A stretch of DNA of 64,000 nt, taken from positions 124,001 to 188,000 of the forward strand of contig NZ_MUHR01000006.1 of assembly GCF_002105285.1 (NCBI RefSeq), read 5' to 3'. The stretch is from Planktotalea arctica (GTDB lineage Bacteria; Pseudomonadota; Alphaproteobacteria; Rhodobacterales; Rhodobacteraceae). The notes under the pieces were generated by a model. The model worked only from the letters and a program-made list of their open reading frames with translations, had not been told where the DNA came from and did not search any database. The translations under genes were made by a program, and so were the position numbers. Positions 34,238 to 45,750 of this stretch are shown here, piece by piece (position 1 is the stretch's first letter; every line of letters starts with the position of its first letter).

Positions 34238-34528
34238 CGAGATTCCCCTGTTCAGATTTATCCTCCAAAAATGGATTATTCTGCGCGAATGGCAAGGGGT
34301 CGTGTGGTGCGCATGCAGATTTCGCCATTTGACGGGGCGTGCATGATCGATCGGGTGTCGCGATAGGCTGTGTCCAGCGTTTGCGTATTTATCGCTCTTT
34401 CCTCCCCATTCAGACAGGTTTGCTCGTGAATTTCACCTATTCGCTGCAAGGCGACCGTGTTGGCTGTGGACACGCGCGTGATTTGCCCCGACAGGTGCAG
34501 AGCTCGTAAATTGGAAAGAATCGTATCG

Positions 34529-35359
34529 ATGTGCCCGGCTCAACCGACCAAGACCATGCAGCGTGGATGGATCATCCCGATCGGCGGGGGCGACAAGAAA
34601 GTGCGCTCCTCCACTATTCTTCAACGCTTTGTTGAATTGAGCGGCGGCGCGGATGCGCGCATGGTGATCATTCCCACTGCCTCGCAACTGGATACTGCGG
34701 GGCAACGCACGCAGGACGTCTTTGGCCAGTTGGGCGTCAGCGACATCGAAATTGTTGACCTTGCGACGCGCGCGGATTGCGCAGACCCCAAGTTTCTTGA
34801 AAAGCTGAATGCTGCCACAGGAATATTTTTTACCGGTGGCAACCAGCTTCGGCTGGCCACGACCATCGGTGGCACTTTGGCGGCCAAGGCGCTGCGTGCG
34901 GCCAATGCGCGGGGCGTGCATATTGCGGGTACTTCGGCAGGTGCCGCTTTCGTGTGCGAGCATATGATTGCGATCGGTAAATCAGGTGGCACGCCCAAAC
35001 GCGGCATGGCATCGCTGTCACCGGGTCTCGGGTTGACCAACCGGGTGATCGTCGATCAGCATTTTCGCGAACGTGACCGGCTGGGACGTTTGATGACGGC
35101 ATTGGCCTATAATCCCTTCGCGACGGGGGTCGGCGTCGACGAAGATACAGCGGCGTTTATCGGACCTGATGATGTGATCGAGGTCTTTGGCAGCGGCGGA
35201 TTGACTATCGTTGATCCATCCGAGCTGGAGTTTTCGTCTATGGCCGATGCCCAGACAGGCGCTGCCGTTGGACTTATCGGTCTAAAGCTGCATATCCTTC
35301 TCGCTGGGGATCGCTATGATCTAAATACGCGCCGTGCCTTTCCAAGCGCAGGACCGTGA
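34529..35359 (+). CDS. cphB: Cyanophycinase
   Basis: A 276-residue serine peptidase of the S51-like family that cuts cyanophycin to beta-Asp-Arg dipeptides. No signal peptide, so it acts inside the cell. The catalytic residues match the known set: S136 in HIAGTSAGAAF, H178 in IVDQHFRERDRLG and E205 in GVGVDEDTAAFIG, each four positions higher than in the Synechocystis enzyme as I recall it. The core also has IIPTASQLD and FFTGGNQLRL. ATG 34529 has GGAAAGA upstream; ATG 34556 is an alternative. It lies 45 bases before cphA on the same strand, so synthesis and breakdown genes may be co-expressed. Confidence 0.92.
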   Translation: MCPAQPTKTMQRGWIIPIGGGDKKVRSSTILQRFVELSGGADARMVIIPTASQLDTAGQRTQDVFGQLGVSDIEIVDLATRADCADPKFLEKLNAATGIFFTGGNQLRLATTIGGTLAAKALRAANARGVHIAGTSAGAAFVCEHMIAIGKSGGTPKRGMASLSPGLGLTNRVIVDQHFRERDRLGRLMTALAYNPFATGVGVDEDTAAFIGPDDVIEVFGSGGLTIVDPSELEFSSMADAQTGAAVGLIGLKLHILLAGDRYDLNTRRAFPSAGP

Positions 35360-35404: not shown

Positions 35405-38290
35405 ATGAAGATTCTTGAAACATCCGTTTTTCGAGGTCCTAACATTTATGCAAAGTTCCCGGTCATTCGACATGTGGTTGATATCGGTATTCTGGAAGAC
35501 TGGCCCTCTGCGAAAATCGGAGAGGATTTTATCGAGCAGCTTCTGGACGCTTTGCCCGGCCTAGCAGAGCACGGCTGCTCGTACCGCGAACATGGCGGGT
35601 TTATTCGCCGTCTGCGCGAGGACGAGGGCACGTGGATGGCCCATATCTGGGAACATATGTCGATCGAGTTGCAAAACGTTGCAGGGTTGGACGTCACCTT
35701 CGGGCGCACGCGCGGCGCAGGCGAGAGCGGTCTCTACAACATGGTGTTCCAATACGAGCAAGAAGAGGTCGGCCTGCACGCCAGCCAGCTTGCGCTGGAT
35801 TTTATTCACAACCTGTTGCCGGATCATCTGCTCGAAAATAGCGAGCGCGTGGAAGGATTTGATTATACCGCGGAGCGCGAAAAGTTCATTCGCGCCGCGC
35901 AGCGCAAAGCGCTGGGGCCATCCACCGCTTCGCTGGTCAACGCGGCCATTGCACGTGATATTCCCTGGATGCGGCTGAATGAATACAGTCTGATCCAGCT
36001 TGGCTACGGAAAATACCAAAAGCGCATTCAGGCGACGATTACCTCCGAAACCGATTATATCGCGACCGATCTGGCCTCGGACAAAAAAGCCACCAACCGT
36101 ATTTTGGGCGATCTTGGCCTGCCAGTGCCGCGCCAGATTGCGGTAAGCGATGCGCCAGCGGCAGTAAGTGCGGCGGAGCGCATCGGTTATCCGGTCGTCG
36201 TCAAACCTTTGGACGGCAATCATGGCAACGGGATTTCGATCAATCTCAAGACGGGCGAAGCGGTGGCAGAGGCATTCGAATTCGCGCTCGTTCATAACAA
36301 GCGCGGGCGCACGGTTATCGTGGAGACCTTCATTGAGGGCCTCGATCATCGGATGTTGGTGATCGACGGCAAACTTGAGGCCGTGTCCAAGCGGGTACCG
36401 GGGCATATTGTGGGCGACGGCAAACATAGCGCCGCGGAACTGATCGAGATCGTCAACTCCGATCCGCGCCGCGGCGTCGGGCATGAAAAGGTGCTGACGC
36501 GGCTAGAGCTGGACAAGACCGCCGAAGACCATCTGGCCGAGGTCGGGTACTGCGCCGCTGATGTGATCAAAGATAAAGAGGTGGTGTTCCTGCGCTCGAC
36601 CGCGAACCTCTCCACGGGGGGCACGGCGGTGGATGTCACCGATATCGTGCATCCGGACAACCGCAACATGGCAGAGCGCGCGATCAAGGCGATCGGGCTG
36701 GATATCGGCGGCGTTGATTTTCTGTCAGCGGATATTTCGCAATCCTACAAGGACATTAATTCGGGCATATGCGAAGTGAACGCTGCTCCGGGCTTTCGCA
36801 TGCACGTCGCCCCAAGCGAGGGCAAGTCACGTGACGTTGCCGGCGCGGTAATGGAAATGCTCTTTCCCGCTGGCACGCCCAGCCGCGTTCCTATCGCCGC
36901 GATCACCGGCACCAATGGCAAGACGACCGTGTCGCGCATGGTTGCGCATATTCACAAGCTGAGCGGCAATACCGTAGGTTTGGCCACGACGGATGGCGTT
37001 TATATAGACGGCAATCTGACGGTCAAAGGTGATTTGACTGGACCGCGTGCGGCGCAGATGATCCTGCGTGATCCAACGGTGGACGCGGCTATTCTGGAAA
37101 CGGCGCGCGGTGGATTGCTGCGCAGTGGCATGGGCTATGAGCGCTGTGATGTGGGTGCGGTGCTGAACATCGACGCGGATCACCTTGGCCTCAAAGGTGT
37201 CGAAACCGTCGAAGACCTTGCCCGCGTCAAGCGTATCGTCGTCGAAGTGGCGCGAGACACGGCGGTTCTGAACGCGGATGACGAGCTGTGCCTGAAGATG
37301 GCCAGCCACACGCAGGCGGATCATATTTGCTACGTCACCATGAACGCCAATCACCCGCTGGTGCGCGAACACGTGCGCATCGGTGGGCGCGCGATAGTGC
37401 TCGAACAGGGCATGAACGGACATATGATCACGATCTACGAGAATTCTTCGAATATCCAGTTGATGTGGACCCATCTGATCCCGGCAACCATCGACGGTAA
37501 AGCGATGCACAATGTGCAAAACGCGATGTTCGCAGCGGCGATTTGCTACTCGATGGGCAAATCACTCGAAGATATCCGCCAAGGACTGCGCACTTTTGCG
37601 ACCTCGTATTTTCAGGCCCCCGGACGTTTGAACGTATATGAGGAACATCCGTTCAAGGTTATTCTGGATTATGGCCATAACCCCGCCGCGATCAATGCGA
37701 TGACCAAGCTATGCACCCAACTGGAGCCCAAAGGACGCAAATTGCTTTGCTTCTCGATGCCGGGGGATCGACGCGACGAAGACATCGTGGCCGCTGCGCA
37801 TACGGTCGCGGGCAAGTTTGATCACTATATTTGCCGCGCTGATGACAACCGCCGTGGGCGCGGTAATGCCGAAGTGCCTGAATTGCTGAGCAAGACCTTG
37901 ATCGAATGCGGCGTGCCCAAAGAGTGCATCGAGATTATTCCCGACGAAACTCAAGCGGTCGAGGCTGCATTGCAACACGGGCAAGCGGATGATCTGTTGT
38001 TGGTCTTTGGCGACAACATAGCGCGCACTTGGAAGCAGATCATTTACTTTAACCGCCCTCAGGATGCTCTGGATGCAAGCATGGGCGATGGCTCTGGTGC
38101 AAACGGGGGCGCAGACGTGACTGGCCAAGGCGGCGATCATGACCAAAGCGCGCCCGATCCGCTTGCGGGCGCAACGCCGGTGGAGGGTGCGCCGCAGGTG
38201 CCCGAGAATATTCTCTTGGGCGGTATGCGCATGATCCGCGATGCGCGCGGCGTGCGCCTTGTGGACACACAGGAGGAAGACGGTGATTGA
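35405..38290 (+). CDS. cphA: Cyanophycin synthetase
   Basis: A 961-residue enzyme that builds multi-L-arginyl-poly-L-aspartate, using ATP to add Asp to the backbone and Arg to its side chain. Domains in order: an N-terminal domain (1-160, FRGPNIYAKFPVIRHVVDIG), an ATP-grasp domain (about 210-480, YPVVVKPLDGNHGNGISIN, GICEVNAAPGFRMH), and a Mur-ligase-like module with P-loop GTNGKTTVSRM (about 502-512), ETARGGLLRSGMGYERCD and DYGHNPAAINAM (about 754-765). It is longer than typical CphA because of a Gly/Asp/Pro-rich tail (about 890-961). ATG 35405 follows AAAGGGGAAC. Its 3' end overlaps the next gene. Confidence 0.95.
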   Translation: MKILETSVFRGPNIYAKFPVIRHVVDIGILEDWPSAKIGEDFIEQLLDALPGLAEHGCSYREHGGFIRRLREDEGTWMAHIWEHMSIELQNVAGLDVTFGRTRGAGESGLYNMVFQYEQEEVGLHASQLALDFIHNLLPDHLLENSERVEGFDYTAEREKFIRAAQRKALGPSTASLVNAAIARDIPWMRLNEYSLIQLGYGKYQKRIQATITSETDYIATDLASDKKATNRILGDLGLPVPRQIAVSDAPAAVSAAERIGYPVVVKPLDGNHGNGISINLKTGEAVAEAFEFALVHNKRGRTVIVETFIEGLDHRMLVIDGKLEAVSKRVPGHIVGDGKHSAAELIEIVNSDPRRGVGHEKVLTRLELDKTAEDHLAEVGYCAADVIKDKEVVFLRSTANLSTGGTAVDVTDIVHPDNRNMAERAIKAIGLDIGGVDFLSADISQSYKDINSGICEVNAAPGFRMHVAPSEGKSRDVAGAVMEMLFPAGTPSRVPIAAITGTNGKTTVSRMVAHIHKLSGNTVGLATTDGVYIDGNLTVKGDLTGPRAAQMILRDPTVDAAILETARGGLLRSGMGYERCDVGAVLNIDADHLGLKGVETVEDLARVKRIVVEVARDTAVLNADDELCLKMASHTQADHICYVTMNANHPLVREHVRIGGRAIVLEQGMNGHMITIYENSSNIQLMWTHLIPATIDGKAMHNVQNAMFAAAICYSMGKSLEDIRQGLRTFATSYFQAPGRLNVYEEHPFKVILDYGHNPAAINAMTKLCTQLEPKGRKLLCFSMPGDRRDEDIVAAAHTVAGKFDHYICRADDNRRGRGNAEVPELLSKTLIECGVPKECIEIIPDETQAVEAALQHGQADDLLLVFGDNIARTWKQIIYFNRPQDALDASMGDGSGANGGADVTGQGGDHDQSAPDPLAGATPVEGAPQVPENILLGGMRMIRDARGVRLVDTQEEDGD

Positions 38291-40013
38291 GACCGGGGCC
38301 GAGCTTGCCAACACACGCCGGTTGAGCGGCGCAAATTTCCTGATGAGCGCACATGGCGCCGCCGCCGAAGCCCGCATTGGCGATGACGGCAAAGGTTTGG
38401 TCATGGCGCTGTGGCGCGCGGCGGCGCGTGATTTACTGGACGCCGTCGGCTGGCCTGATAGCAAGATCGCACTGCGCGCCTTCGAGGGTGGGGCCACGTT
38501 GCAAATCAGCGCGCCCACAGATGCGCTTTACGCGGCGACAGAGCTGCTCGAGACCTCTTGGGCGGCATGTTTGGCCCGTATGGCTGGGCACACGTTCGAT
38601 ATCGAGGCTGCAGCGCGTGCCGTCACGCCGCGCATTGCAGCAGAACGATCGCCCAAGGAAGTCGCGCTGGCGCAGGCGGCTGGGGTGCGCGGCGTCACCT
38701 ATCTCGGGCATGACGACAAGATTTCGCTCGGCATGGGGCGGGGCGGCAAAGTCTTCGATATCACAGATCTACCTGCGCCCGACGATGTGGATTGGGACGC
38801 TTTGCACGATATCCCGGTTGCCATGGTCACAGGCACCAACGGTAAATCCACGACCGTCAGGCTGGCCGCTGCAATCGGCGCGGCGGCGGGAAAATGCGTC
38901 GGCCTGTCGTCAAGCGATTGGGTGCGCGTCGGGGGCGATATTCTGGATGAGGGGGATTATTCAGGCCCCGCAGGCGCGCGCTTGGCGCTGCGTGATCCAC
39001 GGGTGGAACTGGCTGTTATTGAAACGGCGCGCGGAGGGCTGATGCGCCGCGGCTTGCCCGTTCCGCGCGCGGATGTTTGCCTGCTTACCAATATTGCCGC
39101 CGATCATTTGGGGTCCTACGGGATCATGGACTTGGCTGCGTTGGCCGATGCGAAGTTTCAACTTTCGCAAGCGGTGCGCCCGAGTGGGCGATTGGTTTTG
39201 AACGCAGATGATCACGAACTTGTTGCGCGAAGTGCAGGGTTTGACGGTGCGATCACCTGGTTCGCCCCTACGTTCGAGCAACCCCTGCTCGATGTCTGGA
39301 TCGCAAGCGGCGGGCGTGCCGCCTTCGTTTCTGGCGGGCAGATGATGCTCGCGCGCGATGGCGGTGTGGCTGCGGTTCTGGCCGTGGATGATTTCGTGCC
39401 TGCGCTGGGCGGCGCGGCGCAGTTCAATGTTTACAACGCGCTTGGTGCGATTTGCCTTGCTGATGCTTTGGACCTGCCGCTCGCGGCGATGCGCGAGGGG
39501 CTTCGGGGCTTTACCGATACGCCCGAGGAAAACCCGGGGCGCGGCAATTACATCGAGCTTGGCGGGCTGACCCTGCTGATCGATTTCGCCCATAACCCTC
39601 ACGGTCTTTTGGCTTTGGCCCCTGCAATCAAATCTATTCCCGCAGAGCGCAGGCTGGTGATCGCCGGGCAAGCGGGGGATCGCAGCGATGCAGATACCTG
39701 CGATATGATCCGTGCGCTGTGGACGTTCGAGCCGGATATGGTCGTGGTTGCCGAGTTGCCCACATTGCTGCGCGGGCGTCCCCTTGGTCAGTTGAGCGAG
39801 GTGATGAGCGCTGAGTTGCGCAGGCTCGGGGCAGGCGAGGATAATATCCTCGAGACGGAAACCGAATATAAGGCCGTGCTCAAATCGCTTGAATGGGCGC
39901 GCAAGGGTGATTTCCTCGCGCTGCTGTTGCACGACAGCCGTGTGCAGACCATGGCGCTTCTGGAGCGCTTGCGCCTGTCGGGGTGGCAAGCGGGACAGCC
40001 TTTGCCGCTTTAG
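38283..40013 (+). CDS. CphA paralogue with Mur-ligase module but no ATP-grasp domain
   Basis: A 576-residue protein. The C-terminal two-thirds is a Mur ligase module closely parallel to CphA: P-loop VTGTNGKSTTVRLA (about 180-193), IETARGGLMRRGLP, LLTNIAADHLG and LIDFAHNPHGL (about 432-442). The N-terminal 175 residues contain a short CphA-like start (RRLSGANFLMS) and a piece resembling the end of the CphA N-domain (DDKISLGMGRGGK beside CphA's SLIQLGYGKYQKR), but the ATP-grasp domain is missing. Nucleotide-binding residues are intact, so it should be an active ligase. The start is GTG 38283, inside the last codons of cphA, with AGGAGGAAG five bases upstream, so translation is coupled. It may be a second Arg-ligating or dipeptide-handling subunit; substrate unknown. 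Confidence 0.85.
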   Translation: MIETGAELANTRRLSGANFLMSAHGAAAEARIGDDGKGLVMALWRAAARDLLDAVGWPDSKIALRAFEGGATLQISAPTDALYAATELLETSWAACLARMAGHTFDIEAAARAVTPRIAAERSPKEVALAQAAGVRGVTYLGHDDKISLGMGRGGKVFDITDLPAPDDVDWDALHDIPVAMVTGTNGKSTTVRLAAAIGAAAGKCVGLSSSDWVRVGGDILDEGDYSGPAGARLALRDPRVELAVIETARGGLMRRGLPVPRADVCLLTNIAADHLGSYGIMDLAALADAKFQLSQAVRPSGRLVLNADDHELVARSAGFDGAITWFAPTFEQPLLDVWIASGGRAAFVSGGQMMLARDGGVAAVLAVDDFVPALGGAAQFNVYNALGAICLADALDLPLAAMREGLRGFTDTPEENPGRGNYIELGGLTLLIDFAHNPHGLLALAPAIKSIPAERRLVIAGQAGDRSDADTCDMIRALWTFEPDMVVVAELPTLLRGRPLGQLSEVMSAELRRLGAGEDNILETETEYKAVLKSLEWARKGDFLALLLHDSRVQTMALLERLRLSGWQAGQPLPL

Positions 40014-40062: not shown

Positions 40063-40935
40063 TCATGGCTCCGGCTCGAACACGCGTACGACGGGGGCAA
40101 GCGTGCTGGACACGGCGGCGCGCTTCATAACGTGGCTGTTATAGGGCATTGAAATGCTGCCCTTCGCATCGATTGCGATAAGCCCGCCATCGCCGCCAAA
40201 GCGTGCGACTTCATCCAGAACTTGCCGGCTCGCGCTCTGCAATGGCGTGTTCGCGTAACGCATTCTTGCTGAGACGTCATAGGCGCTTGCGGTGCGCATG
40301 AATGCTTCGCCAAGGCCGGTGCAGGAAACGGCAACGGTTTCGTCGGCCCATGTGCCAGCCCCGATGATTGGCGTATCGCCGACGCGGCCTGCGCGCTTGC
40401 CAAAGGTACCGCCCGTAGAGGTGCCTGCGGCAAGTTCGCCGTGCAAATCGAGCGCCACAGCACCAACGGTTCCATGGTTCGCGCTGTCTGCGGAGCCGTG
40501 TGACAGATGTTCCGTGTAATAGGCGAGCGGATCAGTGATTTCGCTCAAACCGCTTGCTTTGGCGGCGTTTTGCGCGCCAAGCCCGGCGAGCATTACATGG
40601 TGTCCATCTTCAAGCACAGCCCGAGCTGCGCGAATCGGGCTTTTGATCCCTTCGATTGCAGCAACTGCCCCTGCGCGCCGCTGGGGGCCGTGCATAAGCG
40701 AGGCATCAAGCTCGAATCCGCCCGTCGAGTTGGGTGCAGAGCCTTTTCCCGCCACATATAGACCCGAGGCCTCGAGCGCTTCCACGGCCCAGACCACAAC
40801 GTCCAAGGCCGATTGGCGCGCGCGCAGCTTTTCCTGCCCCGCGATGATCAAACGTGTCAGATCCGCCTTTTGCGTCGTATAATCTGTACCTGGCCGTGCA
40901 CCGGCCCCGCCGTGAAGTACCAATGCGTATGTCAT
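40063..40935 (-). CDS. iaaA: Isoaspartyl peptidase / plant-type L-asparaginase
   Basis: A 290-residue Ntn-hydrolase precursor that cleaves itself before T156 (SANHGTVGAVALD) to form alpha and beta subunits; the new N-terminal threonine is the nucleophile. The N-terminus YALVLHGGAGARPG and FELDASLMHGPQRRAGAVA, and the beta-subunit GTSTGGTFGKRAGRVGDTPIIGAGTWAD, are family hallmarks. It hydrolyses beta-aspartyl dipeptides, including the beta-Asp-Arg made by cyanophycinase, which completes cyanophycin breakdown to Asp and Arg. It lies just after the two synthetase genes but on the opposite strand. ATG 40935 gives the family start. Confidence 0.93.
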   Translation of the reverse strand: MTYALVLHGGAGARPGTDYTTQKADLTRLIIAGQEKLRARQSALDVVVWAVEALEASGLYVAGKGSAPNSTGGFELDASLMHGPQRRAGAVAAIEGIKSPIRAARAVLEDGHHVMLAGLGAQNAAKASGLSEITDPLAYYTEHLSHGSADSANHGTVGAVALDLHGELAAGTSTGGTFGKRAGRVGDTPIIGAGTWADETVAVSCTGLGEAFMRTASAYDVSARMRYANTPLQSASRQVLDEVARFGGDGGLIAIDAKGSISMPYNSHVMKRAAVSSTLAPVVRVFEPEP

Positions 40936-41158
40936 GTTTTTGTCCTGAATAGAGCGGCTGGCGTTTCTTAAAGCGATGCGCAGACAGGCCGCTTTGCGTG
41001 CCGTCGATTTTTCTTGATCCCGTTTCATAATGAAAAATGCGCAGCATTTGAAGGGCTTGATCGCGCCTAAGGTTTGCTAGGTCCGTGCAAAGGTGCGCTG
41101 CAGCTTGCGTATTCGTGTTGACAAATCTGCGAGCATCACCACAAATCGCAATCATCGA

Positions 41159-41400: not shown

Positions 41401-42516
41401 ATGTCTGAATTGCTTGAGACGCCTTTGCACGATCTGCATGTTGCGCTTGGTGCCAAGATGGTGCCCTTCGCGGGCTATTCCATGCCGGTGCAATATCCGC
41501 TGGGGGTGATGAAGGAACATATCCAAACGCGCGAGCGGGCGGGGCTGTTCGATGTCAGTCACATGGGGCAGGTGAAGGTCTCTGGCACAGGCGCGGCCGC
41601 GGCGTTGGAGCGGCTTATTCCCGTTGATATCGAAGGGCTTGGCCTTGATCGTCAGCGCTATGGCATGTTCACCAACGCGGCAGGCGGGATCATGGATGAT
41701 CTGATGCTGGCCAATCGCGGCGATCATATTTTCATCGTGGTGAACGCCGCCTGCAAGGATGCGGATATTACCCATATGAAGGCGCATCTGGAGCCTGATG
41801 TAAGCGTGACGCCCGTGACGGATCGTGCGCTTCTGGCGTTGCAAGGTCCGAGTGCGCAAGCGGTGCTGAGCGCGCTTGATCCAAAGGCGGCGACTATGCG
41901 TTTCATGGATGTGGCGACGCTATCGCTGAACGGGGCTGAGTGCTGGGTGTCTCGATCAGGTTACACGGGCGAGGACGGGTATGAAATTTCCGTTGCCGAG
42001 GCGGATGCGGTCGCTTTGGCCGAAGCCTTGCTGGCGCACGGTGACGTAGAGGCCATCGGTCTTGGCGCGCGCGATTCCCTGCGCCTTGAAGGTGGGCTTT
42101 GCCTGTATGGCCATGACATTGACGCAAGCACGACGCCCGTTGAGGGCGCGTTAAGCTGGGCGATCCAGAAAGTACGCCGTAGCGGCGGCGCGCGCGCGGG
42201 CGGCTTTCCCGGAGCAGACATCATTTTAGGGCAACTGGAGCAAGGCGCACCGCGCAAACGTGTTGGATTGCTTCCCGAGGGCCGTGCGCCGATGCGCGAA
42301 GGCGTCGCGCTTTTTGCCAGTGCTGAGGGCGGCGCGCAGATCGGCGCGATCACCTCTGGCGGCTTTGGACCCAGCGTCGGCGGCCCCGTCGCCATGGGGC
42401 TTGTCGACCGCGCGCACAGCGAGGTCGGCACAACGGTATTTGGGGAATTGCGCGGCAAGCGTTTGCCACTTACGATCGCCAAGCTGCCCTTCACAGCGGC
42501 CAATTTCAAACGATAA
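41401..42516 (+). CDS. gcvT: Glycine cleavage system aminomethyltransferase (T protein)
   Basis: A 371-residue enzyme that transfers the methylene group from the lipoyl arm of GcvH to tetrahydrofolate, releasing ammonia. The N-terminus ([20 protein letters not shown]) and [15 protein letters not shown] are typical, followed by [15 protein letters not shown] with the folate-contacting region and a C-terminal barrel. It is the first gene of gcvT-gcvH-gcvP and lies under control of the glycine riboswitch. GAAAGGGCC precedes ATG 41401. Confidence 0.95.
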
Positions 42517-42533
42517 CTCACGGGAGACTCTCC

Positions 42534-42893
42534 ATGAAATACACTGAAGAACACGAATGGCTACGCGTTGAAGACGACGGCGTCGTCGTCGGCATCACCG
42601 AGCACGCGACGACTCAATTGGGCGATATCGTCTTTGTCGAACTGCCCGAAGTCGGTACGACCGTTACCAAGGACGAAGAGATCGTGGTGATCGAGAGCGT
42701 AAAAGCGGCCTCCGACATTCTTGCGCCTATTGATGGCGAAATTGTCGAGGTGAACGAGGCGCTTGCCGAGAACCCCGCGCTGGCCAATGAGGACGCCATT
42801 GGCGCAGGTTGGTTCTTCAAGATCGAGCCGTCCGATCCATCCCAGATGGACGATCTTATGGACGAAGCCGGTTACAAGAAATTCATCGCTTAA
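42534..42893 (+). CDS. gcvH: Glycine cleavage system H protein
   Basis: A 119-residue lipoyl carrier protein. The lipoylated lysine is K57 in [16 protein letters not shown]. It shuttles the aminomethyl group between GcvP, GcvT and lipoamide dehydrogenase. It lies 17 bases after gcvT and 13 before gcvP. ATG 42534 follows a GGGAGACTC ribosome-binding site. Confidence 0.96.
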
Positions 42894-42906
42894 GAGAGAG
42901 ATCAAA

Positions 42907-45750
<2,844 letters not shown>

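Follow-up and report, generated by a model that had tools for sequence, protein, structure and literature searches.

A Mur-type ligase without an ATP-grasp domain is linked to one subtype of cyanophycin synthetase

The locus

The window, a 64,000-nucleotide stretch of DNA from Planktotalea arctica, holds a cyanophycin cluster in which a complete cyanophycin synthetase gene, cphA, is directly followed by a second CphA-like gene, here called the partner:

34457..35359, + strand: cyanophycinase ORF (TIGR02069, 238.5 bits, matched from residue 40; the true start may be later)
35405..38290, + strand: cphA, complete cyanophycin synthetase with N, G and M domains, 961 aa, HxxEH in the N domain (NCBIfam, motif count)
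38271..38276, + strand: AGGAGG, likely ribosome-binding site of the partner gene, within the 3' end of cphA (read directly)
38283..40013, + strand: partner gene, N-part plus Mur ligase, no ATP-grasp; GTG start, 576 codons and a stop; product P0002
38283..38801, + strand: partner N-part, residues 1-173 (hhalign, motif count, model, Foldseek)
38808..40010, + strand: partner Mur-ligase M domain, residues 176-576 (NCBIfam, Pfam, PDB sequence matches)
40063..41028, - strand: asparaginase-2 family gene, isoaspartyl aminopeptidase (IaaA)-like (PF01112; PRK10226 at 210.7 bits, cut-off of 567 not reached)

Genes that look glycine-cleavage-like, judged by the appearance of their ORFs, occupy 41401-45750, after the cyanophycin cluster.

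The partner is open and in frame over its whole length. Its best start is the GTG at 38283, which overlaps the cphA stop codon (38288-38290) and stands six bases after the end of AGGAGG. We prefer it to a later ATG at 38343 because of this spacing and because R12, R13 and G16, invariant among 16 aligned members, are all encoded upstream of that ATG. The open frame, the likely ribosome-binding site and 78 homologues with catalytic residues rule out an assembly error or a decayed duplicate. The initial annotation had described a "reduced" paralogue, a word that suggests decay; what we find is a conserved family of 78 ORFs that carry their catalytic residues.

A CphA relative without its G domain

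At E <= 1, Pfam gives only Mur_ligase_M (63.9 bits) and Mur_ligase_C (40.2 bits) in P0002, both above their gathering scores (24 and 28.4), and no ATP-grasp match at that threshold. The NCBIfam model for cyanophycin synthetase (TIGR02068) matches P0002 over the M part only, at 301.6 bits, below its curated cut-off of 850. We defined the partner set as ORFs that score above 400 bits to a 16-member profile and have no G-domain match; no ORF above 400 had one. NHGxG, the G-domain motif, occurs in 0/78 partners and in 69/69 of the CphAs that have a partner. By an estimate from alignments, the absent G domain amounts to some 280 residues, roughly 209-489 of the neighbouring CphA.

An AlphaFold2 model of the partner, built from a 16-sequence alignment, has a mean pLDDT of 90.2, and its best PDB matches in Foldseek are CphA1 structures. 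The top four CphA1 chains give query TM scores of 0.80-0.82 and rmsd values of 7.0-7.6 over 873-882 alignment columns, a span which means that the N and M ends of the partner are both matched and that G is skipped; further CphA1 chains score lower (TM 0.54-0.70). Thus the structure prediction and comparison with CphA proposed at the outset agree with the first reading that the whole ATP-grasp domain, put there at about 270 residues, is missing.

What precedes the M domain resembles the CphA N domain plus the short stretch that leads into ATP-grasp in CphA. In one-against-one hhalign comparisons, partner columns 16-168 align with N columns 1-195 of partnerless CphAs (95.2%, E 2.7e-8, 11% identity); against partnered CphAs, just 52 columns at the end of the N-part align (62.7%). 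The N-domain fold of CphA1 is therefore recognisable in the partner by Foldseek, and by hhalign strongly against partnerless and partially against partnered CphAs. Of the initial view that remnants of both ends of the N domain survive, the N-domain likeness stands, but in place of two remnants the N-part looks like one whole small domain. It is acidic, as are the N domains of partnered CphAs: net charge per 100 aa is -6.9 in partners (n=76), -6.1 in partnered CphA N domains (n=69) and -2.3 in others (n=26).

HxxEH, the primer-making site of CphA1, is found in 0/78 partner ORFs; in two of these the contig start removes the N-part. The motif is present in 69/69 partnered CphAs and in 32/38 other CphA ORFs, and most but not all CphA1s have it. 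Its absence rules out primer-making by the partner N-part.

An intact M-domain active site

The initial annotation reported that the P-loop, ETARGG and AHNP motifs are kept, and all three are present in the translated product. By alignment, the M domain contains:

38832..38849, + strand: P-loop GTNGKS, residues 184-189
39021..39038, + strand: ETARGG, residues 247-252; E247 aligns with TeCphA1 E558
39102..39107, + strand: D274-H275, aligned with SuCphA1 D585-H586
39540..39542, + strand: R420, aligned with TeCphA1 R731
39582..39599, + strand: DFAHNP, residues 434-439; H437 aligns with TeCphA1 H748
39771..39779, + strand: RGR, residues 497-499; the preceding loop is unlike that of partnered CphAs (DDxxRGR)

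G184, N186, G187 and K188 are invariant across 78 partners, 69 partnered CphAs and four PDB CphA1s. In TeCphA1, E558 is a Mg ligand and R731 contacts the ATP phosphate, and the roles of K499 and H748 come from the same account (PMC9427784); the double mutation D585A/H586A inactivates the M domain of SuCphA1 (PMC9262961). K499 is the P-loop lysine. The residues aligned with these six positions are identical in 78/78 partners, so the partner keeps the catalytic residues of a CphA1 M domain.

Linkage to one CphA subtype

Among 394 genomes of the same family, 11 (counting the window's own) show a partner match at E <= 1e-70. Samples of the class (385 genomes) and phylum (398) added a few further partners, the weaker matches being CphA-length frames (three candidates per genome were scored in one scan). 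A scan of named genomes, covering the best 80 loci of the candidate list, supplied 61 of the 78 partner ORFs counted. Within these best 80 loci, 44 of the 61 belong to Pseudomonadota (24 Gamma-, 14 Alpha- and 1 Betaproteobacteria, 5 unplaced), and the records behind the other 17, often metagenome bins, bear labels such as Planctomycetota, Myxococcota, Acidobacteriota and Gemmatimonadota. Among plasmids, 4 of 72,556 records match at E <= 1e-60, and all four matches are annotated "Mur ligase family protein"; plasmid carriers include Shinella zoogloeoides ATCC 19623 and Ruegeria sp. THAF33. Four of 20 plasmid CphA records have a partner; those four are 59-63% identical to the window CphA, the rest less than 49%. 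All four are cphA-partner pairs, three of which were viewed and the fourth judged by coordinates.

The survey of genomes suggested with the first annotation shows the same gene pair again and again. Counting as complete a cphA of more than 650 aa with N and G, and leaving out one fusion (L110) and one frameshifted gene (L128), we find a complete cphA directly upstream of 69/78 partners, on the same strand and with frames within 400 bases. Six more partners follow a cphA cut by a contig end (L069, L078, L086, L092, L104, L105), two begin at a contig end (L101, L106) and one is a lone extra copy (L192). The gamma sample holds six more cphA-partner pairs.

We also assembled CphA-bearing genomes independently of the partner: 29 of 398 in a phylum draw and 15 of 312 in a draw from the class of genome G1010, where one CphA fell below the family cut-off, together 41 distinct genomes. 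The G-domain score against the window CphA splits them cleanly into 11 at >= 433 bits and 30 at <= 310, a subtype cut set after the scores were seen. A partner is present in 11/11 genomes of the high-scoring subtype (10/10 excluding the window's own), and lies beside cphA in 0/30 genomes of other subtypes, the partnerless genomes of the gamma sample being examined around cphA only. Over 69 pairs, partner and CphA distances correlate with r 0.86 (the highest of 500 permutations reached 0.147), which speaks for co-inheritance and not for contact. The partner is thus tightly linked to one CphA subtype, and the first impression of a one-off reduced paralogue gives way to a separate lineage inherited with that subtype.

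The neighbours that recur around the partner are cyanophycin genes. Cyanophycinase is upstream in 62/69 partner loci and downstream in one. In 21/69 there is an upstream gene that, where typed in one member, is a metallo isoaspartyl dipeptidase, and the IaaA-like gene is downstream in 13/69. The next commonest neighbour cluster reaches 6/69.

A few relatives are unusual. In a Neisseriaceae MAG (L110 6669-9584), a CphA M domain is fused in frame to a complete partner; the fused gene has no N or G domain, its ATG is preceded by GGAG, and cyanophycinase and an asparaginase-2 family gene come next. The genome also has a complete cphA, on a different contig. The stand-alone homologue of L192 (5996-7735, - strand), away from cphA, is surrounded by 2-oxoacid dehydrogenase, KAS III, nitroreductase, acyltransferase and HAD genes. 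In L128 (7680-9631) the partner gene is broken by a frame change. A Deinococcus taeanensis plasmid (L201 8861-11452) carries a CphA-like protein, annotated "Mur ligase family protein", with a G domain that scores only 92 bits and has no NHG. M-only enzymes may thus have arisen by a further route.

A sister lineage, not a copy or a fragment

We placed the partner in a quick M-domain tree, built without bootstrap. From 112 M domains left after near-copy pruning, partners were thinned from 58 to 30, giving 84 rows: 30 partners, 30 partnered CphAs, 19 partnerless CphAs, three PDB CphA1s and two MurE. All 30 partner rows fall on one side of a branch with SH-aLRT 95. Partnered CphAs sit in a different clade (SH-aLRT 100), joined by Acinetobacter CphA1 and the CphA of the fusion-bearing genome. 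These separate branches make the partner a sister lineage rather than a recent copy of the neighbouring cphA, a recent duplication being ruled out by the partner branch at the strength of this quick tree. A split CphA is ruled out as well: the neighbouring CphAs are complete and keep their own N, G and M sites, so the partner is not half of a divided enzyme.

Comparison with known systems

CphA1 is the best PDB match of the partner by both sequence and fold (7lg5, 7wac, 7lgm, 7lgn). The two share an N-type and an M domain with the same catalytic residues; unlike CphA1, the partner has no ATP-grasp G domain and no HxxEH, and its M domain is on a separate branch.

The cyanobacterial dipeptide polymerase CphA2 is likewise a specialised CphA relative with one synthetic activity and also lacks the N-site motif. 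CphA2, however, polymerises dipeptides at a single site, whereas the partner lacks G and keeps M. That single active site of CphA2 is the G site. The working G domain that marks CphA2 has no counterpart in the partner, which gives no ATP-grasp match and no NHGxG. The partner is therefore the mirror of CphA2, and the initial judgement that it is not like CphA2 was right.

In other Pseudomonadota, a second CphA-like gene also adjoins cphA in tandem cphA'-cphA loci (L186, L187, L188, L189, L190, L195 and L196; the extra copy in L188 is longer). Unlike the partner, that extra copy keeps N and G and mostly ends at model position 714-721 of 862, so that the M lid should be gone; the exceptions end at 625 and 852. 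Tandem pair and partner occur together in 0/41 CphA-bearing genomes. Finally, MurE and other Mur ligases share the Mur M and C domains with the partner, but its 70.6 bits to the MurE model fall below the cut-off of 257.3 and far below its 301.6 to cyanophycin synthetase, and its N-part is CphA-like.

The initial annotation named no characterised enzyme of this architecture, and we too found none among PDB sequences, in NCBIfam or in an open-access literature search, which returned no paper on the partner protein. An earlier notice of the gene is possible, in the supplement of PMC3646047 or elsewhere: that study describes a cyanophycin gene cluster in Octadecabacter arcticus with a CphA of Fueser and Steinbuechel's group IV, and its list of supplementary material names a tree of "cyanophycin ligase-like proteins".

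A second side-chain ligase for cyanophycin?

How might such an enzyme work? The roles offered in the initial annotation, ligation of Arg to aspartyl chains, a different polymer or a complex with CphA, all stay candidates. With a probability of roughly 55%, the partner would be an active Mur-type enzyme that uses ATP and provides cyanophycin synthesis with a second, free-standing side-chain ligase. The neighbouring CphA would extend the aspartate backbone with its G domain and add arginine with its M domain. The N-part would hold the partner to the chain or to CphA, and the partner would phosphorylate the side-chain carboxylate of an aspartate in the polymer, then join an amino acid there, most simply arginine, at residues that CphA has left bare. 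We infer activity, the cyanophycin chain as acceptor and docking by the N-part from the kept catalytic residues, the separate lineage, the tight linkage to one CphA subtype and the cyanophycin-gene neighbours; we also count in its favour the acidic N-part, similar to partnered CphA N domains, and the L110 fusion.

Some observations count against this side-chain ligase. Since all 69 partnered CphAs keep their G, M and N sites, there is no gap in the synthesis that a partner would have to fill, and the lone copy of L192 sits among genes without an evident cyanophycin link. Moreover, Acinetobacter and Tatumella CphA1 are similar to the partnered subtype, with G-domain scores of 421.6 and 411.0 bits, the former falling inside the partnered clade and the latter having been pruned before the tree was built. 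Given a primer, TmCphA1 makes cyanophycin in vitro alone (PMC9262961). This subtype can thus work without a partner, which argues against a strict need.

A bolder version puts the partner (N+M) in a class of its own, the third among cyanophycin synthetases: a side-chain ligase that acts in trans and has a distinct preference for acceptor or amino acid. We propose this tentatively, at clearly less than even odds.

Alternatively, the partner could add mainly an amino acid other than arginine, for example lysine, ornithine or glutamate, yielding a mixed polymer. Lys, Orn, Cit or Glu do occur in known cyanophycins (PMC8560796). The loop before RGR bears on this idea. In MurE, a DNPR motif binds the amino acid, and we take this loop to be its counterpart. 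It reads D-D-x-x-R-G-R in partnered CphAs (D at -4 in 65/65 and at -3 in 64/65 readable sequences) and mostly E/D-[LMI]-x-x-[YH]-L-R-G-R in partners (E/D at -6 in 67/74 readable, Y/H at -2 in 63/74), which also have a one-residue insertion there (L492, M-domain alignment). However, the loop varies in partnerless CphAs too, 26/74 partners have an acid at -4, and just two M-domain columns (F435, A464) separate partners from CphAs at > 80% conservation on both sides. Nor did we recognise a gene supplying another amino acid among those recurrent neighbours that were identified, a minority of the non-cyanophycin clusters, which reach at most 6/69 loci. We therefore regard a change of amino acid as doubtful. 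Two further conserved partner arginines, R233 and R256, were considered as the sign of a new acceptor site and dropped, because CphAs carry arginine there too: at the position of R233 in 26% of those with a partner and 50% of those without, and at that of R256 in 37% of those without.

It is improbable that the partner is a starter enzyme, one that turns free Asp and Arg into beta-Asp-Arg or short primers for CphA to extend. The joining of Arg to free Asp has been proposed as a very slow first step of CphA1 (PMC9262961), but the primer-making motif HxxEH is absent from the partners and kept in every partnered CphA, so primer supply seems already solved. Least probable of all is a non-catalytic subunit that would attach to CphA or to granules and control chain length or localisation: a CphA self-sufficient by sequence and a tightly linked gene pair would suit it, but ATP-binding and catalytic residues kept in 78/78 partners are not expected of a pseudoenzyme.

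Cyanophycin synthesis has so far been described as the work of a single enzyme, CphA1 or CphA2. A second ligase, co-inherited across one CphA subtype in several phyla, implies an unrecognised step in the synthesis or composition of the polymer, and suggests a testable role for a gene that the four plasmid records call just "Mur ligase family protein". It also offers a natural stand-alone side-chain ligase with which to study or tune a biodegradable polymer. If the partner does represent a third class of synthetase, the polymer side chains of this CphA subtype would be set by two enzymes, not one.
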